Shown here: one piece after another, positions 1,680 through 21,257 of the stretch
Position numbering within the stretch: position 1 is the stretch's first letter
How the letters are laid out: the number at the start of each line of letters is the position of its first letter
NCBI GenBank assembly: GCA_001295905.1
Contig: LJHT01000019.1
Span: 124,001 to 188,000 of the forward strand
Reading direction: 5' to 3'
Source of the DNA: a beta proteobacterium AAP51
Lineage (GTDB): Bacteria; Pseudomonadota; Gammaproteobacteria; Burkholderiales; Burkholderiaceae_C
Length of the DNA: 64,000 nucleotides
Position numbers and translations under genes: made by a program
The notes under the pieces: model-generated
Told to the model about the DNA's origin: nothing
The model's database searches: none
Seen by the model: only the letters and a program-made list of their open reading frames with translations

Positions 1680-4121
1680 TCAAGGTGGGCCCAGCCACAG
1701 CGTGCCCGGGCCGGCGGCCGGCCGCACGCGGGCCGCCACGGCGCTGGCGGCATCGGCCGGCGGGGGGTGGGGCGGCTGCCAGCCCACCTCGGGCTGCAGC
1801 ACGTGGCCGCCAGCCCGCAGGGTGTGCAGCAGGTCGAGCGGCTGGCCGTTGTGCAGCGAAGCGCGGTCCTGGAAGACGGCCGCCTTCAGCACCCGCACCA
1901 GCCGCGCTGCGGGCAGGTCCGGCGGCGTGAGCCAGACATTGGCCTCGCTGATGACGCGCGAGCCCTGGCCCAGGCCCAGCGAGTAGCCGTAGGCCGCCCC
2001 CGGGTTCACCAGGTACAGGTTGTTCAGCAGGTGCACCTGGCCCCAGCGCACGCGCGGCGCGCGTTCCTTCACGTCTTCAAAGAGGTTGTGGTGGAAGCTC
2101 ACCTGCAGCTTGCCATCGTCGCTGGTGAGGCTGTCGCTGTTGCCCACGAGCACCGTCTTGTCGTGGCCGCGGAAGTGGTTGAAGCTGACGGTGATGAACT
2201 GGCTGCCGCGGATGATGTCCAGCAGGCCGTCGAAGCGCTGCAGCGGGCGACCGAAGACCACGCGTTCGGGGGCCGTCTCGGGCGGGCCGTCGTCAAAGCG
2301 GCAGTGGTCCACCCACACGTGGCGGGCGTTGCGCAGCATCAGCGTGTCGTAGGCCGAGTTCCATTCGCCGCTGGCGTTGTCGGCCGGGTCCCAGGCGGGA
2401 AAGTGGTCGTAGGCGCGGCGCAGGTGCAGGTGGCGCACGATGACCTGCTGCACGCCGTCGAGCACGAGGCCGCCGTTGACGATCTCGGCGCCGGCGCCCA
2501 GGCCCACCAGCGTGGTGCTCGAGGGCACGGCCAGCATCACGTGTGCAGCCTGGCGCCGGGCCGAGCGCTGGCGTGCTTCTTCCAGCGCGCCTTCGGGCTT
2601 CCGCGCGCCCCAGGTGGCGGAGGCGTAGGCGGCCTCGAAGGCGCTCCAACTGAAGGCGGGGTCGCGGAAATCCTCGAAGCCCAGCGTGCGGCTGCCGTCT
2701 TCGGCTTCGGCCAGGTCGATGCGGCCGGCCACCTTCACCAGCCGCGGGCGTTGCACGCCGGGGCGGCCGTCGGCACCGAGATGCGGCGCCAGGGCAGCCA
2801 CCAGCTGCGCGCGGTTGCGCACGGTGTGCACGTCTTGCGGCGCGGCGTCGGCCCCGCCGCGCGTGCCGCCTTCGGCCGCACCCCAGCCGCCGTCGGCCGG
2901 CAGCACTTCGCGTGCGGGGTCGGCAGGGCCCGGGCGGTTGTTGAACTCGAAGAAGCGGTTGGCCTGCTCGCCCGTCACGGCAAAGGGCCGGCGCGAGGTG
3001 CTGGCCGACCAGCCGCCCAGGTGCGGCCCGAGCTGGCTGTCGCGGATGAGCACCTGCCCGTTGGGCGAGATGCCCGGCTGCCAGGTGCCGCGCGCCACGC
3101 CTTCGTCCCAGGCGCGGCCCAGGCTGATGCTGCCCGGCGCCACGCCGGCCTCGGCCACGAAGCGCGTGCGCTGCACCAGGAAGCCCAGCCGCGCCGCTGC
3201 CGGGGTGCTGGGCGCCAGCACGTGGCCGCCGTTGGGCGGCTGGCGGCGGCCGGCGCGCTGCACGATGGTGCTGTCGTCGATGACGAGCGTGGCGTTGCCG
3301 AAGATGTAGTCCACATCGCCGGCAATCACGCTGGCGCGGACCAGCACGCGGCCGGGCAGCGTGGGTTTCGCGCGGCGCACGTGCAGCGTGTCCTGGTGGG
3401 CCCAGAGCTGCACGCGTTCCAGCAGGATGCGGTCGCCGATGGTCATCAGCGCCACGGCCTGCGCGCCGCCGCTCTCGCCGGCGCCGGGCGGGTAGCCCTG
3501 GCCGGCCTTCACGCCGTCCATCGCGTCGTTGGCGATGGTGAGGTGGGCGGCGGTGAGCTCGTCGCTCGCGAACACCACACTGGCACTGCCGTAGGTGCCA
3601 TAGGTGGTGGCCGCCAGGTCGGGCCAGCAGGCGTGCGCTGGGGTGCCGGCGGGCTTGGGCTGCGCGTTGTAGCGGCCTTCCACCAGGCGCACGGCGCCGG
3701 CATCGCCAGGCACGCCGATGAGCGTGAGCGGGGCCTTGGCGCTCACGCACAGCGGTTCGCGGTAGGTGCCGGGGCGGATCTGGATGACCCAGCGGCGTGC
3801 GTTGCCGCTGGCAGCCGCTGCCGCCGGCACGGCATCCACCGCTGCCTGCACCGTGCGGTGCGTGCCGCTGCCGTCGGCGGCGACGACGAAGTCGGGCTTC
3901 AGCGCGTGCGTGTCCACCGCGGCCGGGGCCCAGGGTGCAGGGCCGTCGGCGAGGTGGTGCGCCGCGGTGTGTTCGGCGGCCTGGGCCGCGCTCATCTGCG
4001 GGCGCTGCGGGGCCGTGACGTTATCGGTGCCCGGCGTGGCCGCCGCCGAGCCCGCCGCCGTGCCCAGCAGCGTCGACCAGATGAGCGCCCGTGCGATCTT
4101 CATGGCCGGCGGGCGCGGCAT
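1680..4121 (-). CDS. Secreted bifunctional pectinesterase (CE8) / pectate lyase (PL1) fusion
   Basis: 813 residues with two catalytic beta-helices. The N-terminal half (about 60-390) is a pectinesterase that removes methyl groups from homogalacturonan: HQDTLHV, the nucleophile region GDVDYIFGNA and LGRAWDE are all present. The C-terminal half (about 405-800) is a calcium-dependent pectate lyase 1 domain with WVDHCRFDDG, FNHFRGHDKT and the RxPxxR catalytic motif in ERAPRVRWG. An export signal is visible (MKIARALIWSTLLG then an Ala-rich run). The first ATG overlaps the previous stop as TGATG, hinting at translational coupling; the ATG at 4103 starts exactly at the signal peptide and is an alternative. 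It is the last gene of the leftward kduD operon. The neighbouring fusion at 14601-17450 has the same two activities in the opposite order. Confidence 0.9.
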   Translation of the reverse strand: MPRPPAMKIARALIWSTLLGTAAGSAAATPGTDNVTAPQRPQMSAAQAAEHTAAHHLADGPAPWAPAAVDTHALKPDFVVAADGSGTHRTVQAAVDAVPAAAAASGNARRWVIQIRPGTYREPLCVSAKAPLTLIGVPGDAGAVRLVEGRYNAQPKPAGTPAHACWPDLAATTYGTYGSASVVFASDELTAAHLTIANDAMDGVKAGQGYPPGAGESGGAQAVALMTIGDRILLERVQLWAHQDTLHVRRAKPTLPGRVLVRASVIAGDVDYIFGNATLVIDDSTIVQRAGRRQPPNGGHVLAPSTPAAARLGFLVQRTRFVAEAGVAPGSISLGRAWDEGVARGTWQPGISPNGQVLIRDSQLGPHLGGWSASTSRRPFAVTGEQANRFFEFNNRPGPADPAREVLPADGGWGAAEGGTRGGADAAPQDVHTVRNRAQLVAALAPHLGADGRPGVQRPRLVKVAGRIDLAEAEDGSRTLGFEDFRDPAFSWSAFEAAYASATWGARKPEGALEEARQRSARRQAAHVMLAVPSSTTLVGLGAGAEIVNGGLVLDGVQQVIVRHLHLRRAYDHFPAWDPADNASGEWNSAYDTLMLRNARHVWVDHCRFDDGPPETAPERVVFGRPLQRFDGLLDIIRGSQFITVSFNHFRGHDKTVLVGNSDSLTSDDGKLQVSFHHNLFEDVKERAPRVRWGQVHLLNNLYLVNPGAAYGYSLGLGQGSRVISEANVWLTPPDLPAARLVRVLKAAVFQDRASLHNGQPLDLLHTLRAGGHVLQPEVGWQPPHPPPADAASAVAARVRPAAGPGTLWLGPP

Positions 4122-5293
4122 CAGGCAGGCAGATCGGCAGGCAGATCGGCCAGGTAGAGCGCCGGCTCGCCTTCGGCGTCGGCGCTGAACAGCACCTGCC
4201 GGCCGTCGGGCGTGAAGCTGGGGTGGGGGTGCGTGACCTGGCGGTTGCCCTTGTGCACCTTCCAGCTGCTGTCGTGGCGGGCGATGCGGGTGGTGGTGCC
4301 GGCCTTCATGTCGAACAGGTGCAGGTAGGGGTCGTGCTCGATGGTGTGGCTGCTGGCATCGGCCACGTCGGCCGGGCTGCCGCAGCCGTCGCCCACCATC
4401 AGGCTGCCGTCGAAGTTGCTCATCAGGTGCGAGCAGGGCGGCATCTGCATCAGCTGCTGGCTTTGCAGGGTGACGGGGTCCAGGCTGCAGATCCAGCGTT
4501 CACGCTCGCCCTTGAAGTAGCTCACGAAGACCATGGCGCTGCCGTCGGGCACCCAGAACTCGTGCGTGCAGCTTTCGCCGGTGGCGTGCACCTTGCCGCA
4601 GCGGCGGTTCGTGCCGTCTTCGTTGATGAACCACATGCGCGCGTCCACCAGGTCGTGCGGGCCTTCGTGGCAGTAGGCCACGGTGTGGTCGTCGCCGGGG
4701 CGGTATTGCGGGTGGCCGAGCCAGCCTTTCTGCTCGAGGATGACGGTGCGCGCGCCCGTGGAAAGGTCGATGCTGAACAGCCGGCACAACGGCCGGCGGT
4801 GGTACATCTCGGCGAACTGCTTCCAGTCGGAGAGTGGCGACCAGTCGGCCTGCGCGATCTCGATGCCCACCATCTTCGTGCAGGCGCTGTTGCTCACCCA
4901 GGTGCCGTAGCCCACCCAGCCTTCGGGCACGGTGTAGACCACGTCTTCCTGCAGCCCGTTCAGCGCCAGGCGCACCAGCGTGCGACCGCCGCGCACGAAG
5001 TAGAGGTGCCGGTCGTCGGGGCTCAGGAAGCCGCCGAAGGTGTTCTCACCGGCGCCATCGCTGAGCTGCAGCGCGGTCTGGCTTTGCAGGTCGAGCAGGT
5101 GGTAGTTCCAGTGCGTGCCGGGGCCGAACTCGGCGCCGAAGATGAGCTTGCTGCCATCGTTCGTGAAGCACTTCTGGTAGAAGTAATTGCGGTGGCAGGT
5201 GGTGTCGGTGGGCGTGAGCCGCGTCACCAGCGCGCCCGTGTCGGGGTCGTTGCGGGTGACGAAGTTCAGCTGGCGTTCGAAGTGCTTGGGCAT
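4121..5293 (-). CDS. ogl: Oligogalacturonate lyase (PL22)
   Basis: 390 residues, the usual length for Ogl, a cytoplasmic beta-propeller lyase that cuts short oligogalacturonides to unsaturated galacturonate. Family-like stretches are HRNYFYQKCFTNDG near the start, VAYCHEGPHDLVDARMW and GESCTHEFWVPDG, whose histidines match the metal site of the family, and VTHPHPSFTPDG near the end. The ATG at 5293 (MPKHFERQL) is chosen because the longer upstream reading frame is unlike the family and runs into the transport gene. No signal peptide is seen, fitting a cytoplasmic enzyme fed by the ABC importer encoded just upstream. The C-terminus ends in a duplicated DLPA from a small tandem repeat. Confidence 0.92.
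   Translation of the reverse strand: MPKHFERQLNFVTRNDPDTGALVTRLTPTDTTCHRNYFYQKCFTNDGSKLIFGAEFGPGTHWNYHLLDLQSQTALQLSDGAGENTFGGFLSPDDRHLYFVRGGRTLVRLALNGLQEDVVYTVPEGWVGYGTWVSNSACTKMVGIEIAQADWSPLSDWKQFAEMYHRRPLCRLFSIDLSTGARTVILEQKGWLGHPQYRPGDDHTVAYCHEGPHDLVDARMWFINEDGTNRRCGKVHATGESCTHEFWVPDGSAMVFVSYFKGERERWICSLDPVTLQSQQLMQMPPCSHLMSNFDGSLMVGDGCGSPADVADASSHTIEHDPYLHLFDMKAGTTTRIARHDSSWKVHKGNRQVTHPHPSFTPDGRQVLFSADAEGEPALYLADLPADLPA
4124..4147. repeat. Two tandem copies of a 12-base unit at the end of the ogl gene
   Basis: The unit GGCAGGCAGATC occurs twice in perfect tandem and encodes the doubled ADLP/DLPA at the C-terminus of the oligogalacturonate lyase, just before the TGATG junction with the fusion gene. 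It keeps the frame, so it only lengthens the tail by four residues. Confidence 0.85.
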
Positions 5294-5330
5294 GGGGGTG
5301 GCTGTAGCAAGCGTGCCGACAAGGGCACCG

Positions 5331-6656
5331 TCACTGGATGCGCTTGAGCAGCGCGGCGCCCTCGGTGATGAGGCGCCGCGCGGCGGCGATGTCGGTGGTC
5401 TTGTTGTACGCCACCGTCTCGAAAACTTCGCGCATGAACTTGAGCATTCGCGGGTGCTCGAAAAGCGGGCCGGGCAGCGGCAGGCGGCCGGCGTCGCGCT
5501 GGGCCTGGATCTGCCGGTGCGCCTGCAGTTCCAGCGCCGGCAGCTGGCCTTCACGCTCCAGCTGCTGCAGCGGCCCGCGGGCGCCGGGCAGGCCGCGCGT
5601 GCGGCCGAGCAGGCGCGCGGCTTCCAGGTCGGTGAGCAGAAACTCGATGAGCCTGGCCGCCAGCTCGGGCTGCTTGCAGTGCCGGCCCACGGCGTACATC
5701 AGCGTGGGCCGGCCGAACATGCCGCTGTGCTGCGCGCCGGGCAGTGTGGGGAACTCGCCCAGCGCCAGCCGCTGCGGCGGGCGCAGGGTGCTGGCGCGCA
5801 GCGGTATGGCCGAGTCCCAGGTGAAGTTGCCGGCCCAGCGGCCGTTCACCCAGTCGGGCTGCTGTTCGGTGGGTTTTTCGGCGCCGCCCAGGCTGGCGCG
5901 CAAGGGCAGCGGCGTGGCCACGTGCTCGTTCACCAGGCGCTGGTAGATGCGCACCCAGTCCACCGCTGCGGCTTCGTTCATGGCCACGTGGCTGGGCCTG
6001 AGGCTGCTGCCCGAGCCACTGGCCGGGGCGATGAAGGGCGTGCCGTGCCGCTGCTGCACCCAGGCCTGGGCGAGCAGGATCATGTCGTAGAGCTCGCCGT
6101 CCAGCGGGAAGGCGCCTTCGCCCAGCTTCTGCCGGAACAAGGGGCCGGTGGCGAAGAGTTCGTCCCAGGTCTTCGGCAAGGCCAGGCCCACGCGCTCGAA
6201 GGTGCTGGGGTTCCACAGCATCACGCGCGCGCTGTAGCTCACGGGCAGCGCGTTCAGCCGGCCGGCCACGCGGCCGGTTTCCAGCTCGGCCTCGGGCAAC
6301 TGCTCGCGCACCGCCGGGCCGAGCAGCGGCGCCAGGTCGGTGAAGCCCGTGCCGCGCTTGCTGAACATCGCCAGCCAGGCCCAGTTGATCTGCATCACGT
6401 CGGGCTCGCTGCCGCCGGCCACCTGCGTGGTCAGTCGCTCGAGGTAGCCGTTGAAGCCCATGTATTCGGACTTGATGCGCAGGCCCGGGTTGCGCTGCTC
6501 GAACAGCCGCACCGCGGCCAGCGTGGCCCCGTGCCGCGCCGCGCCGCCCCACCAGGCAAAGCGCAGCACGCGCGTGGGCCGCTGTGCCAGCGCGGGCCTG
6601 GCCAGGCAGGCCGCCGCACCGGCACCCAGGCGTTGCAGCAGCAGGCGGCGCTTCAT
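5331..6656 (-). CDS. togB: Extracellular solute-binding protein of the oligogalacturonide ABC importer (TogB-like)
   Basis: 441 residues of the family 1 extracellular solute-binding fold. The N-terminus (MKRRLLLQRLGAGAAA, cleavage near ALA-Q) is an export signal with a Tat-like twin arginine. Mature-part signatures include LRFAWWGG, FEQRNPGLRIKSEYMGF and GSEPDVMQINWAW, typical of oligosaccharide receptors. It starts inside the end of the ATPase gene (4-base ATGA overlap) and is 37 bases upstream of the oligogalacturonate lyase. Permease, permease, ATPase, binding protein is the togMNAB order known from pectinolytic enterobacteria, so oligogalacturonide is the likely ligand. The ligand is inferred from neighbours, not from binding-site residues. 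Confidence 0.88.
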   Translation of the reverse strand: MKRRLLLQRLGAGAAACLARPALAQRPTRVLRFAWWGGAARHGATLAAVRLFEQRNPGLRIKSEYMGFNGYLERLTTQVAGGSEPDVMQINWAWLAMFSKRGTGFTDLAPLLGPAVREQLPEAELETGRVAGRLNALPVSYSARVMLWNPSTFERVGLALPKTWDELFATGPLFRQKLGEGAFPLDGELYDMILLAQAWVQQRHGTPFIAPASGSGSSLRPSHVAMNEAAAVDWVRIYQRLVNEHVATPLPLRASLGGAEKPTEQQPDWVNGRWAGNFTWDSAIPLRASTLRPPQRLALGEFPTLPGAQHSGMFGRPTLMYAVGRHCKQPELAARLIEFLLTDLEAARLLGRTRGLPGARGPLQQLEREGQLPALELQAHRQIQAQRDAGRLPLPGPLFEHPRMLKFMREVFETVAYNKTTDIAAARRLITEGAALLKRIQ

Positions 6657-9549: not shown

Positions 9550-10311
9550 TCAGCGGGCGAGCCAGCCGCCGTCGACGGCCACGGTGTAGCCGTTGACATA
9601 GTCGCTGGCCTGGCTGGCCAGGAAGACCACCGGCCCGGCCAGATCGTCGGGCACGCCCCAGCGGCCGGCGGGAATGCGTTCCAGGATGGACGCGTTGCGC
9701 CCTTCGTCGGCGCGCAGCGCGGCGGTGTTGTTGGTGGCCATGTAGCCCGGGGCGATGGCGTTCACGTTGATCTTGTGCGCCGCCCACTCGTTGGCCATCA
9801 ACCGCGTGATGCCCATCACGCCGCTCTTGCTGGCGGTGTAGCTGGGCACGCGCACGCCGCCCTGGAAGCTGAGCATCGAGGCCACGTTGATGATCTTCCC
9901 GCCCCGGCCCTGGGCCATGAACTGACGCGCCACGGCCTGGGCGAAGAAGAAGACCGACTTGAGGTTGATGTCGATGACGTCGTCCCAGTCCTTCTCGCTG
10001 AACTTGATGGCGTCTTCGCGGCGGATGATGCCCGCGTTGTTCACCAGGATGTCGACGCTGCCCGTCAGCTCGCGGGCGCGGGCCACCAGGCCCTCGATGC
10101 AGCCGATGTCGCTGAGGTTGGCGCGCAGGTCGAGGAAGCGCCGGCCCAGGGCCTCGATCTGGGCCTGCGTCTCGGTGGGGGCGCTCACGTTGACGCCCAC
10201 GATGTCAGCGCCCGCTTGCGCCAGAGCGCGTGCCATGCCTTGGCCCAGGCCGGTGTCGCAGCCTGTGACGATGGCCACCCGGCCTTGTAGTTGGAAGGTG
10301 TTCAGAACCAT
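9550..10311 (-). CDS. kduD: 2-dehydro-3-deoxy-D-gluconate 5-dehydrogenase KduD
   Basis: 253-residue short-chain dehydrogenase, the exact size of KduD, which reduces 2,5-diketo-3-deoxygluconate to KDG with NADH in the cytoplasm. It shows the cofactor motif TGCDTGLGQG, NNAG, the active-site YTASKSG and the C-terminal VDGGWLAR ending typical of KduD. The ATG at 10311 is preceded by a good ribosome site (GGAGA nine bases upstream). It is the first gene of the leftward operon, whose promoter region carries three overlapping or adjacent inverted repeats shared with divergent kdgF. No kduI isomerase gene, the step before KduD, is in this window. Confidence 0.93.
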   Translation of the reverse strand: MVLNTFQLQGRVAIVTGCDTGLGQGMARALAQAGADIVGVNVSAPTETQAQIEALGRRFLDLRANLSDIGCIEGLVARARELTGSVDILVNNAGIIRREDAIKFSEKDWDDVIDINLKSVFFFAQAVARQFMAQGRGGKIINVASMLSFQGGVRVPSYTASKSGVMGITRLMANEWAAHKINVNAIAPGYMATNNTAALRADEGRNASILERIPAGRWGVPDDLAGPVVFLASQASDYVNGYTVAVDGGWLAR

Positions 10312-10358
10312 GACGATTTTTCTCCGGTGTTCGTTCCGCGGCGGCGAGCCTAACCGAA

Positions 10359-10408
10359 TGAACCGGTGTTTCAGAATCATGGTTTCTAATTAGTGAACCG
10401 CTGTTTCT
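10359..10408. promoter_or_regulatory. Three-site operator array in the kduD/kdgF divergent promoter region
   Basis: Three 15-base inverted repeats fit GAAnCnnnGnTTC: TGAACCGGTGTTTCA at 10359-10373, AGAATCATGGTTTCT at 10373-10387 and TGAACCGCTGTTTCT at 10394-10408. Centres are 14 and 21 bases apart. This half-site (GAAAC-like) resembles operators of KdgR and other IclR proteins. The third site overlaps a possible weak -35 element for kdgF (TTTCTT 10404-10409 with TACAGT at 10427-10432). The same motif recurs between kdgK and udh. The sites are read directly; binding by the IclR protein at 769-1590 is inferred. Confidence 0.72.
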
Positions 10409-10463: not shown

Positions 10464-10796
10464 ATGAATCCCTACTTCCTCGATGCCGAGACCCCTTGGC
10501 ACGAACTCGGCGACGGCATCCGCCGCAAGATCGTCGGCCACACGCCCGGGCTGATGAGCGTGCTGGTGCAGTTCGACAAGGGCGCCGTGGGCACACCGCA
10601 TGCCCACGACGAGTACGACCAGATCGCCTACGTCATCAGCGGCGCCTTCGAGGCCGAGGTGGCCGGCGTCAAGCGCGTGCTGCGCCCAGGCGACGCCTTC
10701 ATCGCGCCGCGCCAGCACCTGCATGGTGTGGTGGCGCTGGAGGCCGGCAGCACCCTGCTCGACCAGTTCACCCCGCGGCGGGCCGACTACCTCTAG
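10464..10796 (+). CDS. kdgF: KdgF-type cupin, unsaturated uronate linearisation
   Basis: 110-residue single-domain cupin. KdgF proteins speed the ring opening of unsaturated galacturonate (product of oligogalacturonate lyase) to 5-keto-4-deoxyuronate. Metal-binding cupin motifs are visible: GTPHAHDEYDQIAYVISG (motif 1, two His and a Glu/Asp position) and a later His in APRQHLHGVVAL. The start ATG at 10464 has a strong ribosome site (CGGAGACAAG). It is divergent from kduD and shares its operator array. The 211 bases between it and the receptor gene are GC-rich and show no further gene or obvious promoter, so cotranscription with the receptor is possible. Confidence 0.87.
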   Translation: MNPYFLDAETPWHELGDGIRRKIVGHTPGLMSVLVQFDKGAVGTPHAHDEYDQIAYVISGAFEAEVAGVKRVLRPGDAFIAPRQHLHGVVALEAGSTLLDQFTPRRADYL

Positions 10797-11007
10797 CCCG
10801 CCGCCCCACGTTTCCGTGCCGGCGCGCACTGCAGCGCCCGGCACCGACTTCATGAGGCGCCCTGCGTGCGCCCGGCTTACCCGGCCCGGCCTGCCTTTCA
10901 CTGGCCGCAAGCCGTGCCCACCGACTGCACCGCGAAACCCGGGCAGGCCCCCCACAAGCGCCCTACAGGCGCGGGCCCGCCCCCCCTTTCACCCCATGGA
11001 GACAAAC

Positions 11008-13959
11008 ATGAAGCAGCGCCCCTCGCGCACCGCCATCGCCGCCGCCGCCCTGCTGGCCCTCGGCACCGCCCAGGCCCAGACGGCACCGGCCCCTGCCGCC
11101 AGCCCGGCCACCGCAGCCCCGGCCGCGCCAGCCGCCCAGCGCATCGAGATCACCGGCTTCCGCGCCTCGCTGGAAAGCGCGCTGAACAAGAAGCGTGAAG
11201 ACTCGGGCATCGTCGACGTCATCCGCTCGGAAGACATCGCCAAGTTCCCCGACACCAACCTGGCCGAGAGCCTGCAGCGCATTCCCGGCGTGGTGATCGA
11301 CCGCGACGCCGGCGAAGGCCGCAACATCACGGTGCGTGGCCTGGGTTCGGACTTCACCCGCGTGCGCATCAACGGCATCGAGGCGCTGGCCACCACCGGC
11401 GGCACCGACAGCAGCGGCGGCGCCAACCGCTCGCGCGGCTTCGACTTCAACGTCTTCGCGGCCGAACTCTTCAGCAGCATCACCGTGCGCAAGAGCTCTT
11501 CGGCCGATGTGGAAGAAGGCTCGCTGGGCGCCACGGTGGACCTGCAGGCCTCGCGCCCCTTCGACTTCCGCGAGCGCACCGTCAGTGTCTCGGTGAAGGG
11601 CCGCTACAACGACGTCGGCCGCAAGACCGACCCGCGCGTGGCCTTCCTGGCCAGCGACACCTTTTTTGACCGCAAGCTGGGCGTGCTGGTCTCGGGTGCC
11701 TACAGCAAGCGCAACCTGCTGGAAGAAGGCTTCAGCACCGTGCGCTGGGACAACGGCCCCAGCTCGGGCGGCTGGTGCGCCCCGCAGGGCGTATTGCCGG
11801 CCAACCCCACCACCAGCACCGCCACCACCTGCGGCCCGGCGGCGCAAGGCGTGGCACGCCTGCCCAACACGCCTGACAACGTGGCGGCCTACAACCTGGC
11901 CAGCAGCGCCAACAACTTCCACCCGCGCCTGCCCCGCTACGGCCGGCTGACGCACGAGCAAGACCGCCTGGGCCTCACCGCCGCCATCCAGCTGCGGCCG
12001 GCCGAGGGCACGCTGCTGTCGCTGGACGTGCTGTACTCCAAGCTGGAGGCCACGCGCCAGGAAGACTTCCTGCAGGCCATCAGCTTCAGCCGCAACGCGG
12101 GGCAGGGTGGCAAGCCGCAGACCAGCGTGCTGGAAGCCCAGTACGCGCCCAACGGCGCGCTGCAGTTCGGCCGCTACAACGGCGTGGACATTCGTTCCGA
12201 ATCGCGCTTCGACGAGCTCACCACCACCTTCACGCAGCCCAGCCTGACGCTGCAGCAGGACATTGGCGAGAACGTGCGCCTGTTCGCCCGCGTGGGCCGC
12301 GCCGAGAGCAAGTTCCGCAACCCGTTCCAGACCACCACCACGCTGGACGCGCTGAACGTCAACGGCTACAGCATCGACTTCCGCGGCAACGACCGCCTGC
12401 CCGTCATCAGCTATCCCTTCGACGTCACGCAGCCGGGCACCCTGAGCCTGGTCACCGTGCCCCAGGTGGCCACCGGCACGCAGCCGAGCACCATCACCAA
12501 CACCACGGCCAGCGAGATCCGCATCCGCCCGCAAGGCGCGAACAACATCAACGACGTGGCGCACTTCAGCGGCGAGTGGCAGGCCATTCCCGACAAGCTC
12601 ACGCTGAAGGCCGGCGTGGACTACAAGCGCTACACCTTCGACACCTTCGAGTTCCGCCGGGTCAACCAGAACGACACCATCTTCGCGCCGCCGGCCGGTA
12701 CCTCGCTGGCCAGCCTGACGACGCAGGTCACCGGCTTCGGCCGCGGCCTGGGCCTGCCTGCGGGCACGCCGACGAGCTGGGTCATCCCGAACCTGGCCGC
12801 CATCGCTTCCACCTACGACATCTACTGCAACTGCCTGAAGAGCGGCCCGGCCGGCGGCCCTGGCGACTTCACGCTGTCGTCCACCACCAATGGCAACGCA
12901 CGCGGCAACAACCGCCGCGTCGTGGAAACCGACCAGGGCGCCTACGTGCAGGCCGACTTCACCACCGAGGTCGCCGGCATACCCCTGCGCGGCAACGCCG
13001 GCGTGCGCGTGGTGCAGACCGAGCAGGCCGCCACCGGCTTCCAGGCCACGGGCGGCGGCACCGAGGTGACCGTGACGCAGACCTACACCGACACGCTGCC
13101 CAGCTTCAACCTCGCGGCCAACCTCACCGACGACTTCATCCTGCGCCTGGCCGCGGCCAAGGTGATGGCACGCCCGCAACTGGGCAACCTGAACCCCGGC
13201 GGCACCATCAGCACCACCGGCACGCTGAGCGTGACCAGCGGCAACCCGCAGCTTAAGCCCTTCCGCGCCACCACGGTGGACGCCAGCGGCGAGTGGTACT
13301 TCGCGCGCAACGCCTTCCTGGGCGTGGGCCTGTTCTACAAGGACATCAACACCTACATCCAGAGCCTGCGCAACAACATCCCGTTCAATGCCACCGGGCT
13401 GCCGCTGAGCCTGCTGCCGCCCAACTTCACTGGCGATGAAGTGTTCCAGGTCACCACGCCCATCAACACCGCAGGCGGCAAGCTCACGGGGGTGGAATTC
13501 AACTGGCAGCAGCCCTTCACCTTCCTGCCCGGCGCCTGGAAGAACGCGGGCTTCCTGCTGAACTACACCTACGTGAAGAGCAAGATCGACTACCAGGTCT
13601 CGCCCACCAGCACGCAGGTGATCCGCGACGACCTGCTGAACCTCTCGCCCAAGAGCTGGAACGCCACGCTGTACTACGACGATGGCACCTTCAGCGCGCG
13701 CGTCTCGGCCTCCTCGCGTTCGGCCTTCCTCACGCGCGTGCCGGGGCAGAACAACAACGACGTGGAAGGCAAGAACGCCAGCACCAACGTCGACGCGTCC
13801 ATCTCCTACAAGCTCACGCCCAACCTCGACCTCACCCTGGAAGGCGTGAACCTCACCAACGAGGCCAACGACCAGTTCATCAGCCGGGCGCGCAACAGCT
13901 CCGTGGTCTATCACAAGACCGGGCGCGAGTACCTGATCGGTGCACGCTACAAGTTCTGA
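11008..13959 (+). CDS. TonB-dependent receptor, probable oligogalacturonide/pectin-fragment uptake
   Basis: 983 residues. A signal peptide (MKQRPSRTAIAAAALLALG, ending near AQAQ) precedes an Ala/Pro linker, the plug domain (about 50-170: SLQRIPGVVIDRDAGEG, NITVRGLGSDFTRVRINGIE) and a 22-strand-type barrel ending in the aromatic residue of GARYKF. The motif FRASLESALNKKR after the signal is typical of carbohydrate-type receptors of the Xanthomonas/Caulobacter class. Ribosome site GGAG sits upstream of ATG 11008; an ATG four codons earlier (10996) is an alternative. Position between kdgF and the secreted pectinases suggests uptake of pectin fragments across the outer membrane. The ligand is inferred only from context. 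Confidence 0.9.
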   Translation: MKQRPSRTAIAAAALLALGTAQAQTAPAPAASPATAAPAAPAAQRIEITGFRASLESALNKKREDSGIVDVIRSEDIAKFPDTNLAESLQRIPGVVIDRDAGEGRNITVRGLGSDFTRVRINGIEALATTGGTDSSGGANRSRGFDFNVFAAELFSSITVRKSSSADVEEGSLGATVDLQASRPFDFRERTVSVSVKGRYNDVGRKTDPRVAFLASDTFFDRKLGVLVSGAYSKRNLLEEGFSTVRWDNGPSSGGWCAPQGVLPANPTTSTATTCGPAAQGVARLPNTPDNVAAYNLASSANNFHPRLPRYGRLTHEQDRLGLTAAIQLRPAEGTLLSLDVLYSKLEATRQEDFLQAISFSRNAGQGGKPQTSVLEAQYAPNGALQFGRYNGVDIRSESRFDELTTTFTQPSLTLQQDIGENVRLFARVGRAESKFRNPFQTTTTLDALNVNGYSIDFRGNDRLPVISYPFDVTQPGTLSLVTVPQVATGTQPSTITNTTASEIRIRPQGANNINDVAHFSGEWQAIPDKLTLKAGVDYKRYTFDTFEFRRVNQNDTIFAPPAGTSLASLTTQVTGFGRGLGLPAGTPTSWVIPNLAAIASTYDIYCNCLKSGPAGGPGDFTLSSTTNGNARGNNRRVVETDQGAYVQADFTTEVAGIPLRGNAGVRVVQTEQAATGFQATGGGTEVTVTQTYTDTLPSFNLAANLTDDFILRLAAAKVMARPQLGNLNPGGTISTTGTLSVTSGNPQLKPFRATTVDASGEWYFARNAFLGVGLFYKDINTYIQSLRNNIPFNATGLPLSLLPPNFTGDEVFQVTTPINTAGGKLTGVEFNWQQPFTFLPGAWKNAGFLLNYTYVKSKIDYQVSPTSTQVIRDDLLNLSPKSWNATLYYDDGTFSARVSASSRSAFLTRVPGQNNNDVEGKNASTNVDASISYKLTPNLDLTLEGVNLTNEANDQFISRARNSSVVYHKTGREYLIGARYKF

Positions 13960-13972
13960 AGGAGAGACCACC

Positions 13973-14599
13973 ATGATTCGCACGCTGAACCGGGTGCGGC
14001 TGGTGGGCCTGCTGGCGGCCGCCCTGGCCACCGGCTGTCTGCAGGCCGCTCCCCTGCACCTGACCGGGGCCACCGTCACCGGCACCGCCACGCTGAACGG
14101 AACGGCGCTGGCGCTGCTGGGTGCCGACAGCGGCTACCAGGCTGGCGCTGGCACCGGCACCACGGCGGTGGTGGGCGGTGCCGGCAACCACGAGTTCATC
14201 ACCGACGACGGTGACGTGGCCAACTTCGTCGACCCCTCGCTGCAGATCGACTTCGAGACCGGCGGCCTGCTGAGCTTCTTCGACAACACCGGGCTGGGCA
14301 CACCCGGCGGCCTGTACACCTTCAGCTTCGTCTTCAGCGGCCTGGCCGCGGCCATTGGCGATGTGGTGCTCGACCCGAGCGGTTGGACGGGCAGCGTGAG
14401 CTACGCCATCACCGCCCCCGACACCGTGAGCTTCACGCTCCAGGGCGTGCAGTTCGCGTCGCCTTTCGGCAGCTTCAGCGCCCAGCTGAACGCGGCCAGC
14501 GCCCAGGTGCCGCTGCCCGGCACGCTGGCCCTGGCGTGCCTGGCCCTGGCCCTGATGGCCCCGTTGGCTGCGCCTGCGCGCCGCCGCCAGGAGGTTTGA
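13973..14599 (+). CDS. Secreted protein with a PEP-CTERM-like sorting tail, function unknown
   Basis: 208 residues. It begins with an export signal (MIRTLNRVRLVGLLAAALATG) and ends with VPLPGTLALACLALAL followed by a hydrophobic run and ARRRQ, the tripartite motif-helix-arginine tail of PEP-CTERM proteins (the VPLP form of the PEP motif). Such tails are processed by exosortase and hold proteins at the envelope or in exopolysaccharide. The middle is Gly/Thr/Asp-rich and beta-like (FITDDGDVANFVDPS) and I do not recognise a catalytic fold. It is 13 bases after the TonB receptor and one base before the lyase fusion, which starts at a strong AGGAGG site inside this gene, so it is part of the pectin operon. 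A Cys at the signal end (ATGC) makes a lipoprotein an alternative. Confidence 0.75.
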   Translation: MIRTLNRVRLVGLLAAALATGCLQAAPLHLTGATVTGTATLNGTALALLGADSGYQAGAGTGTTAVVGGAGNHEFITDDGDVANFVDPSLQIDFETGGLLSFFDNTGLGTPGGLYTFSFVFSGLAAAIGDVVLDPSGWTGSVSYAITAPDTVSFTLQGVQFASPFGSFSAQLNAASAQVPLPGTLALACLALALMAPLAAPARRRQEV

Positions 14600-14600
14600 G

Positions 14601-17450
14601 ATGCACCGCCTCCTGACCGGCACCGCAGGTGCCGCGAGCACACTCGTCCTGACCTTGGGCCTGGTGTTCGCACACGCCCAGGCCCAGGCCCAGACCGACC
14701 CCGCCCGTCAGGCGGCCCCGGCCGACGGCTGGGCCGCCATGGCCGGCGGCACGCGCGGCGGCGCCAGCGCCGAAAGCGCCCAGATCTACACCGTGGCCAA
14801 CCGCGTGCAGCTGCAGGCCGCGCTGGACGACGGCGCGGGCCTGCCCAAGATCGTGAAGGTGGTCGGCACCATCGACATGAGCGAGGGCCGGCCCTACGTG
14901 AGCCGCGCCGACCAGGCCAGCCGCGGTAACGTGCGCCTGCCCAGCAACACCACGCTCATCGGTGCCGGCCCGGGCGCGGGCTTCGTCAATGCGCAGATCC
15001 TCGTCAGCGGGGTCTCGCAGGTCATCGTTCGCAACCTGAAGATCGTGGCGCCCTGCGACGTGGCGCCCACCTTCGACCCCAGCGACGGGGCGAACGGCAG
15101 CTGGAACGCGGCCTTCGACGCCATCTCGGTAGTCTCCAGCAACCACGTCTGGATCGACCGCAACACCATCACCGACGTGCCCGTCACCGACGACACGCTG
15201 CCCATCGAAAACGGCCAGGTGCGCCAGTGCCACGACGGCGCCATCGACATCACGCAGGCCAGCGATCACGTCACGGTCTCGTACAACGTGATCGAGATGC
15301 ACAACAAGACGATGCTGATCGGCGGCAGCGACAGCCACACGGGCGACGCCGGGCGGCTGCGCGTGACGCTGGCCAACAACGTCTTCCGTAACGTGGTGCA
15401 GCGCGCCCCCCGCGTGCGCTTCGGCCAGGTGCACCTCTTCAACAACCTGCACGTGGGCAGCCGCACGGCACAGCCCTACCCGCACAGCTACAGCGTGGGC
15501 GCTGGCAAGGCGGCGAAGATCAGCAGCACGGCCAACGTTTACAGCATCACCGGCGCGGCCCCCGGCTGCGCCAGCGTGGTGACGGCCACCACGCCCGACG
15601 CCGACAGCCGCTACTCGGACACCGGCAGCGTGCTCAATGGCGCGGCGCTGGGCCCCTGTGGCTTTGCAACGGATGTGGGCTGGAGCGTGCCCTACACCTT
15701 CCGTGCGCGGCCTGCCCACCTGGTGAGCGCGCACGTGCTGGCCACGGCGGGCGCGGGCCGCTTCAGCACCAGCATCAGCGGCACCGGCAACCAGGCCACG
15801 CCCCCGGGCACGCGTGCGCCGGCCACCGGCGAGATGGCCGCGCACACCGACACGCGCCTGAGCCTGGCCTTCGACAACGTGCCCACGCTCGGCACCAGCG
15901 GCTTCATCACCGTCCGCCGTGCCAGCGATGGCGTGGTGGTCGACACCATCGACATCAGCAACGCGCCTTCCGCGGGCGAGACGCAAACGGCGATTCCGCG
16001 CACGAACATGGAGATCGACGCCATCGCGCGCGGTGCCATGCCCGAGAACGCCGCGCTGGCGCGCTGGGTGTGGTACCGGCCCCTGCGCGTGTTCGGCAAC
16101 CGCGTGGAGATCCAGCTGCGCGACGGCAGGCTCGCGCACGGCACCGCCTACACGGTGAGCATCGACCCCGGTGTCATCAACGGCACCCTCTTCGGCCAGG
16201 CTTTCAACGGCATCGCGCCCGCTGATGGCTGGACCTTCACCACGCGGGCCGCCCCCAGCAGCTACACCAACCTCACGGTGGACGACACCGGCAGCACGGC
16301 CGATTTCCGCAGCCTGCAGGGAGCGCTGAACTGGGTGATGCGGCACTGCTCGCAGGGCAGTGCCACCAACGCCTTCGGCTGCAACACGCTGGCCACGCCC
16401 AAGCTCATCACCGTGGCCAACGGCCGCTACCGCGAGTTCAACATGCTGCGCCGCGTGCTGAACCTCACCATCCGCGGCGAGAGCCGCGAGGGCGTGGTGA
16501 TCGGCGATGTCAACTTCGAGAGCTTCAACAGCGGCAGCGGGGGCACTTCCGCCTCGCCCGGCACGGCGTTCACCACCGGTGGCCGCGTCGTCGGGCGCCG
16601 CATCCTGCTCGGGGGCCGTGCGTCGATGCTCGTGGAGAGCTGCGACCTGCTGACGCTGGAGAACTTCACCTTCGTCAACCCGCACCCGCGCGTCAGCACC
16701 TTCGACAACCAGGCCGAAGTCATCTACTTCAACACCAGCAGCAATGCGGCCGCCGGGCGCATGGTGGCCAGGCAGATGAGCTTCCTGAGCCAGCAGGACA
16801 CGCTGCAGCTCAAGGGCTATGTGTGGGTGTACCAGTCGCTGGTGGAAGGCAACGTCGACTTCATCTGGGGCGGCCCGATGGCGGCGCTGTTCGAGGACAG
16901 CGAGATCCGCTCGGTGCGCGACACCTCCAGCAGCTCGCCCGGTTTCATCCTGCAGGCGCGGGCCATCGCCGGGGACAAGGGCTTCGTCTTCCTCAACAGC
17001 CGGCTTACCGCCGGCCCCGGCGTGACGGCGGCCTACCTGGCGCGCAGCGGCGGCACCACCAGCAGCACCTACATCGACAACATCGCCTTCATCAACACAC
17101 GCATCGGACCGCACATCCTGCCCGTGGGCTGGTGCGTGGGCACCGGCACCAGCAGAACGGGCACCGGCACCGGCGCCTGCGGCACCAACCCGCCGCCCTG
17201 GGCCGGCACGGCCACTGGCGCGGCCACCGACGCCGCCGGCTGGCGCGAGTGGGGCAGCATGGACCTGGACGGCAACCCGCTGGACCTGAGCGCACGCCTG
17301 GGCAGCGCCACCGTGAACGTGGCGGGCACGCCGCGCAGCGTGGTGCTGGCCAAGCCGCTGGACAGCACCGTGGGCCTGAGCACGCGCGCCGAGGTGTTTG
17401 CCAACAGCACGGCCGGGGGCCTGCCAGCGGGCTGGAACCCGGTACCGTGA
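14601..17450 (+). CDS. Secreted pectate lyase (PL1) / pectinesterase (CE8) fusion, reversed order
   Basis: 949 residues. After a signal peptide (MHRLLTGTAGAASTLVLTLG ... AQAQ) comes a PL1 pectate lyase (about 40-385) with VWIDRNTITD, VIEMHNKTML and RxPxxR in QRAPRVRFG. An Ig-like spacer of the SbsA/Big_5 kind (about 395-550: LSLAFDNVP, YTVSIDPGVI, GWTFTTRA) follows. The pectinesterase (about 555-945) has ADFRSLQGALNWV, SQQDTLQLKG and GNVDFIWGGP. The usual LGRPW motif of CE8 is replaced by AYLARSGG, so the substrate pocket is divergent. Start ATG 14601 has an AGGAGG ribosome site. It would act outside the inner membrane on methylated homogalacturonan. Domain order is opposite to the fusion at 1680-4121. 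Confidence 0.9.
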   Translation: MHRLLTGTAGAASTLVLTLGLVFAHAQAQAQTDPARQAAPADGWAAMAGGTRGGASAESAQIYTVANRVQLQAALDDGAGLPKIVKVVGTIDMSEGRPYVSRADQASRGNVRLPSNTTLIGAGPGAGFVNAQILVSGVSQVIVRNLKIVAPCDVAPTFDPSDGANGSWNAAFDAISVVSSNHVWIDRNTITDVPVTDDTLPIENGQVRQCHDGAIDITQASDHVTVSYNVIEMHNKTMLIGGSDSHTGDAGRLRVTLANNVFRNVVQRAPRVRFGQVHLFNNLHVGSRTAQPYPHSYSVGAGKAAKISSTANVYSITGAAPGCASVVTATTPDADSRYSDTGSVLNGAALGPCGFATDVGWSVPYTFRARPAHLVSAHVLATAGAGRFSTSISGTGNQATPPGTRAPATGEMAAHTDTRLSLAFDNVPTLGTSGFITVRRASDGVVVDTIDISNAPSAGETQTAIPRTNMEIDAIARGAMPENAALARWVWYRPLRVFGNRVEIQLRDGRLAHGTAYTVSIDPGVINGTLFGQAFNGIAPADGWTFTTRAAPSSYTNLTVDDTGSTADFRSLQGALNWVMRHCSQGSATNAFGCNTLATPKLITVANGRYREFNMLRRVLNLTIRGESREGVVIGDVNFESFNSGSGGTSASPGTAFTTGGRVVGRRILLGGRASMLVESCDLLTLENFTFVNPHPRVSTFDNQAEVIYFNTSSNAAAGRMVARQMSFLSQQDTLQLKGYVWVYQSLVEGNVDFIWGGPMAALFEDSEIRSVRDTSSSSPGFILQARAIAGDKGFVFLNSRLTAGPGVTAAYLARSGGTTSSTYIDNIAFINTRIGPHILPVGWCVGTGTSRTGTGTGACGTNPPPWAGTATGAATDAAGWREWGSMDLDGNPLDLSARLGSATVNVAGTPRSVVLAKPLDSTVGLSTRAEVFANSTAGGLPAGWNPVP

Positions 17451-17456
17451 CAGGCC

Positions 17457-20400
17457 GTGCCTGAAGACTGCGCGAAGCCCCGCACGAAGCCCGGCACGAA
17501 GCTCGACAAGCAGCCCGGGACCCAGGCCTGGCTGGCCGGGGTGCTGCTGGCCGCTTCGGTGGCGGCCGGCGCCCAGCCGGCCGCGCCACCTTCGCCAGGC
17601 GAAGCCGAACAGCCCGCGCTGCTGCTGGTGGGCGACAGCACCCTGGCGCCGCACAGCGGCTACGGCGACGCGCTGTGTGAACGCCTGGCGCCGGGCTGGG
17701 CCTGCCTGAACCTGGCGCGTGGCGGGCGCAGCAGCAAGAGCTACCGCGAGGAAGGCCTGTGGGAGCGCGTGACGGCGCGGCTGCGCAACCGCCAGGGCAG
17801 CGCGCCCCACGTGGTGCTGATCCAGTTCGGCCACAACGACCAGCCTGGCAAGCCCGGCCGCAGCACCGAGCTGGCCACCGAGTTCCCGGCTCACCTGCAG
17901 CGCTATGTGCAGGAGGTGCGGGCCGCCGGCGGCCTGCCGGTGCTGGGCACGCCGCTCACGCGGCGCAGCTTCCAGGGCGGTGTGCTGCAGGACGACCTGC
18001 AACCCTGGGCGGAGGCCACGCGACGCGTGGCGCAGGCGCTGGGCGTGCCGCTCGTCGACACCCACGCCGCCAGCACGGCGCGTGTGCAGGCGCTGGGCGA
18101 AACGCTGGCCGAGACCCTGGCCGTGGCCGCGCGGCCCGCCCCTGGCGAGCCGCCCGCCGCGCCCGGCCGCGGCTCGAACGCCTTCGACCGCACCCACGTG
18201 GGCCCGCGCGGCGCCTGCCTGTTCGCCGCGCAGACGGCGCCACTGCTCAGGCAGGCCGTGCCCGCGCTGCGCCAGGCCTTCCGCGAGGGCGGCCCCGATG
18301 AAGCGGCTTGCCTGGCGCTGCCACCGCCGCCGCCAGCCGCCGAACTGGAGCGGGCCCGCGAACTGCACCGCGGCAGCTATTCGATGGCCGGCTGGGCCGT
18401 GGGCACGCAAGGCGGGCGCGGTGGGCGGGTGCTGCGCGTCACCACCCTGCGGCCCAGCGGCCCGGGTTCCTTGCGCGCGGCGCTGGAAGCACGCGGCCCG
18501 CGCAACATCGTCTTCGAGGTCGGCGGCGTCATCGACCTGCAAGGCGGCCGGCTCGACATCCGCGAGCCCTTCGTCACCATCGCCGGGCAGACCGCGCCCG
18601 CGCCCGGCATCACGCTCATCAAGGGCGAGGTGCGCGTGGGCACGCACGACGTCATCGTGCAGCACCTGCGCCTGCGCCCCGGCGCATGGGGCCGGCCCGC
18701 GCGCAGCGGTGGCGACCAGGACGGCCTGAGCACCGGCGCCGGCGCGCACCATGTCATCGTCGACCACTGCAGCTTCAGCTGGGCCACCGACGAGAACCTC
18801 TCCATCGGCGGGCCGCGTTTTCCCGGCGCCACGCCCGACGAATGGCGCCGCCACACGGCGCGCGCCATCACCTTCAGCCACAACCTCATCTACGAGGGCC
18901 TGGGCCACTCGGTGCATGCCAAGGGTGAACACAGCAAGGGCACGCTGGTGCACGACAACGCCACCGGCATCCTGCTGCACGCCAACCTCTACGCCAGCAA
19001 CCGCGAGCGCAACGCGCTGTTCAAAGGCGGCGTGCGGGCGGCGATGGTGAACAACCTGGTCTTCAACCCCGGCACGCGCGCGGTGCACTACAACCTGCCG
19101 GCCGGCGAGTGGGAAGGCCAGCCTTTCCAGACCGGCCGCATCGCACTGCTGGGCAACCTGCTTCGCCACGGCCCCGACACGCGCGCCGGCCTGCCGCTCT
19201 TCGTGCTGGGCGGGCATGGCGATGTGGAACTGCACCTGGAGGGCAACGCGGCCGTCGATTTCCTCGGCCACCCGCTGCCGCTGACGGCGGTGGACAACGC
19301 CGGTCGCGCGCGCATCGTCGAGGTGCCCGCCGCGCAGGCCGCGCTGCCGCCCCACCTGCGCCTGCTGCCCGTGGCCGAGCTGGAACTGCAGCTGATGCGC
19401 GCCGTCGGCGCCCGGCCCTGGGACCGCGACGAAGCCGACCAGAAGCTGCTGGCCGACGTGGCCGAAGGCCGCGGCCGCCTCATCGACGACGAGACCCAGG
19501 GCCTGGGCTACCCGCGCCATGCCGCTACGCAGCGGCCCTTCGACGCGGCGGCCTGGCACCTGCACGACATGAGCCCGCGCGCCGGCTGGGCCTCGCTGTT
19601 TCCGGCGGCAGCGCCAGCCGCCGCGCGCCCGTTGGCTGCAGCCCCTGCGCCGGCCGTCCCCGCCAGCACGGCCGAACCCCGCCGCTGGGCCGCCGGCCTG
19701 GAAGGCCAGCGCCGGGCCGATCTCGGCAACGGCCAGTTCCGCAACCCCGTGCTGGCCGGCGACTTCCCCGACCCCACGGTGCTGAAGGACGGGCCCGACT
19801 ACTACCTCACGCATTCGTCCTTCGAGGCCGTGCCGGGTTTGCTGATCTGGCACTCGCGCGATCTCGTCAACTGGCAACCGCTGGCGCCTGCGCTCACGCG
19901 CTACATCGGCAGCGTGTGGGCGCCCGAACTCGTCAAGCACGGCGGCCGCTACTACCTGTACGTGCCGGCCAAGCTGCCCGGGCAGCAACGCAGCGCAGCA
20001 GGCGGGGGCGCCCGCGGCGACATCTTCGTGATGCACGCGCCGCACCCGCGTGGGCCCTGGTCGGCGCCGGTGGCGCTGGGCATCGACCGCATCGACCCCG
20101 GCCACGCGGTGGACGAGCAAGGCCGGCGCTGGCTCTTCCTCAACGGCGGCGTGCGCGTGCCGCTCAGCGCCGACGGCCTGCGCACCACGGGCCCGCTGGA
20201 GATGGTGTACGAGGGCTGGCGCTACCCCGAAGACTGGGTGGTGGAGAGCTACTCGCAAGAGGGCCCGAAGATGCTGCGCAAGGACGGCTGGTGGCACATG
20301 ACGCTGGCCGTGGGCGGCACCGCCGGCCCGCCCACCGGGCACATGGTGATCTCGGCCCGCGCGCGCACGCTGGCCGGGCCCTGGGAGCACTCGCCGCACA

Positions 20401-21257
20401 ACCCGCTCGTGCGCACGCGTTCGCGCAGCGAAGCCTGGTGGTCGCGCGGCCACGCCACGCTGGTGGAAGGCCCCACGCCGGGCGACTGGTACATGCTCTA
20501 CCACGGCTATGAAGCCGGCTACCACACGCTGGGCCGGCAGATGCTGCTGGAGCCCATCGAATGGACGCCCGACGGCTGGTTCCGCAGCCGCCTGCCTGCC
20601 GGGGCCGACGTGGGTGACCCCTTGCCGATGCCGCGCGGCGGCAGCGCCGTGCCGCACGGCCGGGCGCTGTCCGACGACTTCCAGGCGCCGCAGCTGGCCA
20701 CACCGTGGAGCTTCTTCCGCGGTGACGAGAGCGACGCCGCACGCGTGCAGGTGGGCGGCGGCACGCTGGCACTGGCCGCGCGCGGCAGCAGCCCGGCCGA
20801 CAGCCGGCCGCTGAGCTTCGTGGCCGGCGACCGCGCCTACGAGGTGGAGGTGGACCTCGACCCCGATGCCGGCGCCAGCGGCGGGCTGCTGCTCTTCTAC
20901 AGCGAGCGCCTTTACGCCGGCCTGGGCCTGCGGCCGCTGCCCGAAGGCGGGGCGGCGCTGCTGCTGCACCGCTACGGCACCGACCAGCGCCGTGGCAGCC
21001 TGCCCCTGCGCGCCGATGGCCAGCCCTGGCGCCCCGGCCAGCCGCTGCGCCTGCGCCTGCGGCTGGAAGACCACGTGCTGACGCTGCACACCAGCACGGA
21101 CGGTGGCGTGACGTGGCAGAAGTTCGGCACGCAGATGGAGGTTTCGGGCTACCACCACAACGTGGCCGGCGGCTTCATGAGCCTGCGGCCGGCGCTCTAT
21201 GCGGCGGGGCAGGGGCAGGTACGATTCCGCCGCCTCGTCTACCGCGCGCTGCCCTGA
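17457..21257 (+). CDS. Trimodular pectinase: SGNH acetylesterase (CE12-like), pectate-lyase-like, GH43
   Basis: 1266 residues in one unbroken frame, GTG start six bases after the previous stop. A possible signal (WLAGVLLAASVAAGAQ, about 25-40) follows a basic n-region. Module 1 (about 50-290) is a rhamnogalacturonan-acetylesterase-type SGNH hydrolase with GDST (Ser61), GHND (125-128) and DRTH (Asp244, His247). Module 2 (about 300-700) is a pectate-lyase-like beta-helix (VLRVTTLRPSGPGSLRAAL, FVTIAGQTAPAPGI, VIVDHCSFSWATDE); the RxPxxR motif is not seen. Module 3 (about 760-1060) is a GH43 five-bladed propeller with DFPDPT (Asp772) and the acid Glu935 in QEGPKM, followed by a C-terminal GH43 beta-sandwich (about 1070-1266). 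It could deacetylate, cut and debranch pectin in one polypeptide. Individual module substrates are inferred. Confidence 0.88.
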   Translation: MPEDCAKPRTKPGTKLDKQPGTQAWLAGVLLAASVAAGAQPAAPPSPGEAEQPALLLVGDSTLAPHSGYGDALCERLAPGWACLNLARGGRSSKSYREEGLWERVTARLRNRQGSAPHVVLIQFGHNDQPGKPGRSTELATEFPAHLQRYVQEVRAAGGLPVLGTPLTRRSFQGGVLQDDLQPWAEATRRVAQALGVPLVDTHAASTARVQALGETLAETLAVAARPAPGEPPAAPGRGSNAFDRTHVGPRGACLFAAQTAPLLRQAVPALRQAFREGGPDEAACLALPPPPPAAELERARELHRGSYSMAGWAVGTQGGRGGRVLRVTTLRPSGPGSLRAALEARGPRNIVFEVGGVIDLQGGRLDIREPFVTIAGQTAPAPGITLIKGEVRVGTHDVIVQHLRLRPGAWGRPARSGGDQDGLSTGAGAHHVIVDHCSFSWATDENLSIGGPRFPGATPDEWRRHTARAITFSHNLIYEGLGHSVHAKGEHSKGTLVHDNATGILLHANLYASNRERNALFKGGVRAAMVNNLVFNPGTRAVHYNLPAGEWEGQPFQTGRIALLGNLLRHGPDTRAGLPLFVLGGHGDVELHLEGNAAVDFLGHPLPLTAVDNAGRARIVEVPAAQAALPPHLRLLPVAELELQLMRAVGARPWDRDEADQKLLADVAEGRGRLIDDETQGLGYPRHAATQRPFDAAAWHLHDMSPRAGWASLFPAAAPAAARPLAAAPAPAVPASTAEPRRWAAGLEGQRRADLGNGQFRNPVLAGDFPDPTVLKDGPDYYLTHSSFEAVPGLLIWHSRDLVNWQPLAPALTRYIGSVWAPELVKHGGRYYLYVPAKLPGQQRSAAGGGARGDIFVMHAPHPRGPWSAPVALGIDRIDPGHAVDEQGRRWLFLNGGVRVPLSADGLRTTGPLEMVYEGWRYPEDWVVESYSQEGPKMLRKDGWWHMTLAVGGTAGPPTGHMVISARARTLAGPWEHSPHNPLVRTRSRSEAWWSRGHATLVEGPTPGDWYMLYHGYEAGYHTLGRQMLLEPIEWTPDGWFRSRLPAGADVGDPLPMPRGGSAVPHGRALSDDFQAPQLATPWSFFRGDESDAARVQVGGGTLALAARGSSPADSRPLSFVAGDRAYEVEVDLDPDAGASGGLLLFYSERLYAGLGLRPLPEGGAALLLHRYGTDQRRGSLPLRADGQPWRPGQPLRLRLRLEDHVLTLHTSTDGGVTWQKFGTQMEVSGYHHNVAGGFMSLRPALYAAGQGQVRFRRLVYRALP

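Follow-up and report, generated by a model that had tools for sequence, protein, structure and literature searches.

A CE12-PL1-GH43 fusion protein predicted to act as an exported tri-functional pectinase in a homogalacturonan utilization locus

Organization of the locus

The window, meaning the whole 64,000-nucleotide stretch of beta proteobacterium AAP51 that was analyzed, contains a gene encoding a CE12-PL1-GH43 fusion protein (17457-21257, +). It is preceded by genes encoding KdgR, the IclR-type regulator of pectin catabolism (769-1590, -; NCBIfam NF011671, above cut-off), a CE8-PL1 fusion (1680-4121, -; PF01095 at 77-338 and PF00544 at 515-729), a PL22 oligogalacturonate lyase (4121-5554, -; Pfam PF14583, E 4e-187), an ABC transporter, the 2-dehydro-3-deoxy-D-gluconate 5-dehydrogenase KduD (9550-10380, -; NCBIfam TIGR01832, above cut-off), a TonB-dependent receptor assigned by Pfam/NCBIfam searches to the TonB-Xanth-Caul subfamily (10600-13959, +), and a fusion of a PelA/PelE-type PL1 with a CE8 pectinesterase-like domain (14601-17450, +). 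After the fusion gene come ygjV and genes for a PfkB kinase, an epimerase-family dehydrogenase, an SMP-30 protein, a galactarate/altronate dehydratase, and a porin. The locus is one of homogalacturonan and uronate chemistry, and the order KduD / TonB receptor - PL1-CE8 - CE12-PL1 - ygjV is kept in relatives.

The lyase domain of the upstream PL1-CE8 protein (PF00544, E 3e-50) matches 1ooc PelA with an E value of 3e-79, and its CE8 part gives a weak PF01095 match below the cut-off. This PelA/PelE-type lyase shares hardly any sequence similarity with the PL1 module of the fusion protein, which suggests a division of labor in which PL1-CE8 handles methylated stretches and the fusion protein those that are acetylated or decorated in other ways. 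The single locus thus carries two fusions of a pectin methylesterase with a pectate lyase, CE8-PL1 and PL1-CE8, in opposite module orders. Between the TonB receptor and PL1-CE8 lies a 219-codon frame (13940-14599, +) with an export-like N-terminus and without a Pfam match.

Reading frame and modules of the fusion protein

The fusion gene starts with a GTG located 7 bases beyond the preceding stop and runs uninterrupted as a single open frame of 1266 codons to its own stop, as the initial annotation had described. Its third-position GC content is 0.91 to 0.93 across the three modules, typical of a real gene, and the protein is single copy in its own genome. A 2227-codon antisense open frame (14475-21158, -) covers the fusion gene and its neighbor and most likely arises as a side effect of codon usage at such GC content. 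Residues 1 to 40 (17457-17576, +) contain the hydrophobic stretch AWLAGVLLAASVAAGA, which reads by eye as a Sec-like export signal without twin arginine, in agreement with the secretion proposed earlier.

The genome is a 144-contig draft, a circumstance that would favor an assembly or sequencing artifact joining two genes. However, in the congener G039, which is an independent assembly, all three modules lie in one unbroken frame whose product is 89% identical to the window protein, and the linkers of the two proteins differ in length by whole codons, so that the frame is kept. Between the two genes, dN/dS amounts to 0.24 for CE12, 0.14 for PL1, 0.09 for GH43, and 0.22 for GH43_C2, and to 0.44 for the linker, the top value after the signal region. 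Since frame, module dN/dS, and in-frame linker differences concur, a chance assembly join between modules, the event that the initial annotation had named as fatal to its proposal, is ruled out, and we give the artifact a negligible probability. The purifying selection acting on each module further indicates that all of them have been kept functional since the two genomes split.

The domain search proposed with the initial annotation returned GDSL_2, GH43, and GH43_C2 from Pfam and PelZ from NCBIfam. Residues 45 to 295 (17589-18341, +) form a CE12-type SGNH acetylesterase module, matched by GDSL_2 at 58-209, in which the triad Ser61 (GDS), Asp244, and His247 (both in DRTH) was found at exactly the positions given earlier. 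The triad is invariant across 16 CE12 homologues, and in the same alignment so are all SGNH blocks (GDS, the block II Gly, GHND, and DxxH). Only three solved proteins matched the profile of this module below an E value of 0.01, namely, 2o14 YxiM (1e-11) and two rhamnogalacturonan acetylesterase sequences, among them 1deo (2e-10); among the SGNH esterase families, the module accordingly appears closest to CE12.

The pectate lyase module spans residues 300 to 715 (18354-19601, +) and is closest to PL1_2. The NCBIfam PelZ model matches residues 310 to 695 (E 4e-101, 338 bits, short of the equivalog cut-off of 840 bits), and the PL1 profile matches the solved PL1_2 lyase 9buj, PfPL1 (E 1e-32), both of which substantiate the pectate-lyase-like assignment; the module is too diverged for the Pfam PL1 model, PF00544, which scores 12 bits, under its cut-off. 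Arg518 is invariant in the lyase alignment and corresponds in position to residue 220 of 9buj. Arg220 of PfPL1 has been proposed as catalytic (PMC11229556), and Arg518 is therefore deemed the candidate catalytic base. An AlphaFold model of CE12-PL1 built from 11 sequences had a pLDDT of 46, which is very low confidence over the lyase; both the fold of the lyase and the contacts between modules are predicted here from sequence alone.

An Ala/Pro-rich linker at the fusion point (residues 716 to 752; 19602-19712, +) leads to the GH43 catalytic domain (residues 761 to 1042; 19737-20582, +) and to the concanavalin-like GH43_C2 domain (residues 1072 to 1254; 20670-21218, +; Pfam PF17851, E 2e-10). 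The Pfam Glyco_hydro_43 match is strong (E 2e-80; 270.6 bits versus a curated cut-off of 32.2). To the previously named Asp772 (FPDP) and Glu935 (SQEGP) we add Asp880 (IDPGH) as the third GH43 acid, so that the Asp base, the Asp modulator, and the Glu acid are all present, and all three are invariant across 20 GH43 homologues. The GH43 model (pLDDT 82.5) has BlXynB 6ms3 as its closest structure (TM 0.79), and every one of its top solved matches is a GH43 enzyme with a five-bladed propeller and a C-terminal sandwich, which supports the GH43 and C-terminal sandwich assignments. By similarity, the fused GH43 falls among exo beta-xylosidases/arabinofuranosidases, with only about 25% identity to characterized enzymes. 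Among the best matches listed from phage records, GH43-like matches were partial only; one record labeled "bacteriophage" from human feces (MT836247.1:9851-11242), which possibly contains bacterial DNA, encodes a GH43 40% identical to the window module.

Distribution and origin of the fusion

The CE12-PL1-GH43 order in one frame was detected in the genome under study and in 1 of its 59 congeners, G039. CE12-PL1 in one frame is common in the genus (G003, G007, G008, G011, G014, and G018) and was also seen at loci L003 to L007, L009, and L021, some of which belong to the same genomes as these species. No three-module protein turned up in about 80 further genera of the family, although one of their genomes, G111, has CE12-PL1. 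Full-length matches to the fusion protein were likewise absent from some 40 members of the order, from 72,556 plasmids, and from the best 80 loci listed in the genome-contig search. In the open-access literature we found no description of the CE12-PL1, PL1-GH43, or CE12-PL1-GH43 order and nothing on pectin loci in Roseateles, and the papers on xylogalacturonan-active GH43 were mostly fungal. Both literature and survey, the latter suggested by the initial annotation, uphold its remark that the three-way order is not known as a standard family architecture; outside its own genome, the fusion occurs in G039 only among the genomes searched.

A likely precursor arrangement is found in a Roseateles sp. 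metagenome-assembled genome (L009), where CE12-PL1 ends with ..SKSKP* and a separate GH43 gene starts inside that stop with an ATGA overlap. By eye, the N-terminus of this GH43, MNKDLSRRHLLGASLGAGLLSACG, is a twin-arginine signal with a lipobox. The fusion's Ala/Pro linker occupies the place of the L009 stop, start, and Tat-type signal, and an operon of two genes with overlapping stop and start has therefore plausibly become one gene. The GH43 tree pairs the fused GH43s with the L009 gene as their sister (100/97), followed by the Pelomonas genes. The unfused L009 GH43 is itself split over two frames (L009:10091-11571), through either a sequencing indel or gene decay. PL1 and GH43 genes also adjoin, unfused, at L059, G130, and L002. 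The free GH43 relatives of Sphaerotilaceae, Caulobacteraceae, and Sphingomonadaceae mostly have an N-terminal RR motif together with a hydrophobic stretch, and the signals of Xanthomonas relatives look Sec-type. On fusion, the GH43 has plausibly moved from Tat to Sec export, a step that we infer from signals read by eye.

Other genera have a free-standing CE12 behind the TonB receptor, and CE12-PL1 is thus itself probably a derived fusion. In a first step, CE12 would have joined PL1, a pair now common in the lineage; in a second, the downstream GH43 gene would have joined CE12-PL1 where stop and start overlap, and its own Tat-type signal would have been lost. In the sister species G007, CE12-PL1 is followed directly by ygjV, without GH43. 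Since the PL1 tree places the genome under study outside G039 plus G007 (96/83), the simplest reading is that GH43 was lost secondarily in G007; the absence of GH43 there shows the fused module to be dispensable.

Predicted function and relation to known systems

We deem the protein an exported tri-functional pectinase of a homogalacturonan utilization locus, with a two-step origin, at a probability of about 0.6. Deacetylation of galacturonate residues would fall to the CE12 module and beta-eliminative cleavage of the exposed, still decorated backbone to the PL1_2-like module. GH43 would trim terminal pentoses (xylose or arabinofuranose) off the polymer or the released oligomers; the latter would then enter via the TonB receptor, and PL22 and the Kdu pathway would complete their breakdown. 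The PL1_2 enzymes characterized so far belong to homogalacturonan loci or, in the case of PfPL1, attack apiogalacturonan, with a shallow groove thought to leave room for decorations (PMC11229556).

The initial annotation had instead suggested acetylated, arabinan-branched rhamnogalacturonan I as the target, with GH43 removing arabinose side chains. Its claim that a single exported chain combines three modules directed at pectin stands, but the proposed target is not supported, and we consider it rather improbable. The founding CE12 enzymes are rhamnogalacturonan acetylesterases (as the 1deo match recalls) acting on rhamnogalacturonan, not homogalacturonan, which counts against our reading, and the arabinofuranosidases BoGH43A/B are among the GH43 relatives. 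However, the lyase is a PL1, grouping with a subfamily known from decorated homogalacturonan, and not a PL4, PL9, or PL11; the surrounding locus holds homogalacturonan enzymes; and the genome keeps PL11, PL4, a PcRGLX-type protein, GH88/GH105, an endo-arabinanase GH43, and a second GDSL esterase elsewhere, on contig C134. The existence of this separate rhamnogalacturonan/arabinan locus means that the fused GH43 need not serve arabinan, and its grouping with exo-acting enzymes points the same way. An endo-arabinanase role for it was rejected, as the arabinanase-type GH43 of the genome is another gene (L134:12070-13065). More likely, the fused module trims terminal xylose or arabinofuranose on galacturonan, and acetylated, pentose-decorated homogalacturonan is the more likely target of the whole protein. 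The C134 locus also encodes an 870-aa fusion of a GDSL esterase with a beta-lactamase-family (serine hydrolase) domain (L134:6843-9455) and a GH88/GH105-DUF4861 fusion adjoining a DUF2264 gene (L133:1804-3897).

The joining of the modules might also be neutral packaging, each acting as its unfused relatives do, without channeling and on three targets that need not belong to one polymer. Relatives with the same genes adjacent and unfused, and G007, which keeps the rest without GH43, are in line with this explanation; the retention of the fusion since the split from G039, together with purifying selection on all modules, speaks against it, albeit not as proof of synergy, and we hold it to be unlikely. 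A more speculative extension of the pectinase reading, which we regard as doubtful, is that the GH43 belongs to an uncharacterized proteobacterial clade, with members beside CE12 and PL1 genes, whose activity would be new to GH43, taking xylose or another pentose directly off the galacturonan backbone, so that one chain would deacetylate, debranch, and cleave decorated homogalacturonan.

The case offers a clear example of how a multi-enzyme carbohydrate-degrading protein is assembled, with two-gene precursor (ATGA), fusion, and probable secondary loss all in close relatives. It also presents an enzyme module apparently switching export route from Tat to Sec upon fusion and points to an uncharacterized GH43 clade tied to decorated homogalacturonan.

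Compared with known systems, the esterase module shares its SGNH blocks and Ser/Asp/His triad with 1deo and 2o14 YxiM, each matched over part of the solved protein only, but unlike them it lies N-terminal to a pectate lyase. PelZ of Dickeya dadantii and PfPL1 have in common with the lyase module a related sequence, the catalytic Arg position, and a galacturonan setting; both are single-module enzymes of low identity to it, and the PelZ NCBIfam cut-off is not reached. BlXynB 6ms3, 1yrz, and BoGH43A/B have the same catalytic domain plus GH43_C2 layout and the same three catalytic acids, whereas the window GH43, at about 25% identity, belongs to its own proteobacterial clade, is fused, and is without the Tat-type signal of its nearest relatives. 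CE12 ahead of a pectin lyase has been described in HUW50_16055 of Metabacillus, a CE12-CBM35-PL11 protein (PMC10483417), in which, however, the lyase is a PL11 rhamnogalacturonan lyase, a CBM35 is added, and a glycosidase is missing. Counterparts within the genus are the two-module CE12-PL1 proteins (G007, G014, L021, and others), which have the same modules and, where seen, the same locus and gene order but stop after PL1, without GH43. None of the modules stands out within its family, and the three-way fusion is a real, rare joining of familiar parts, a multi-catalytic CAZyme and not a novel type of system.
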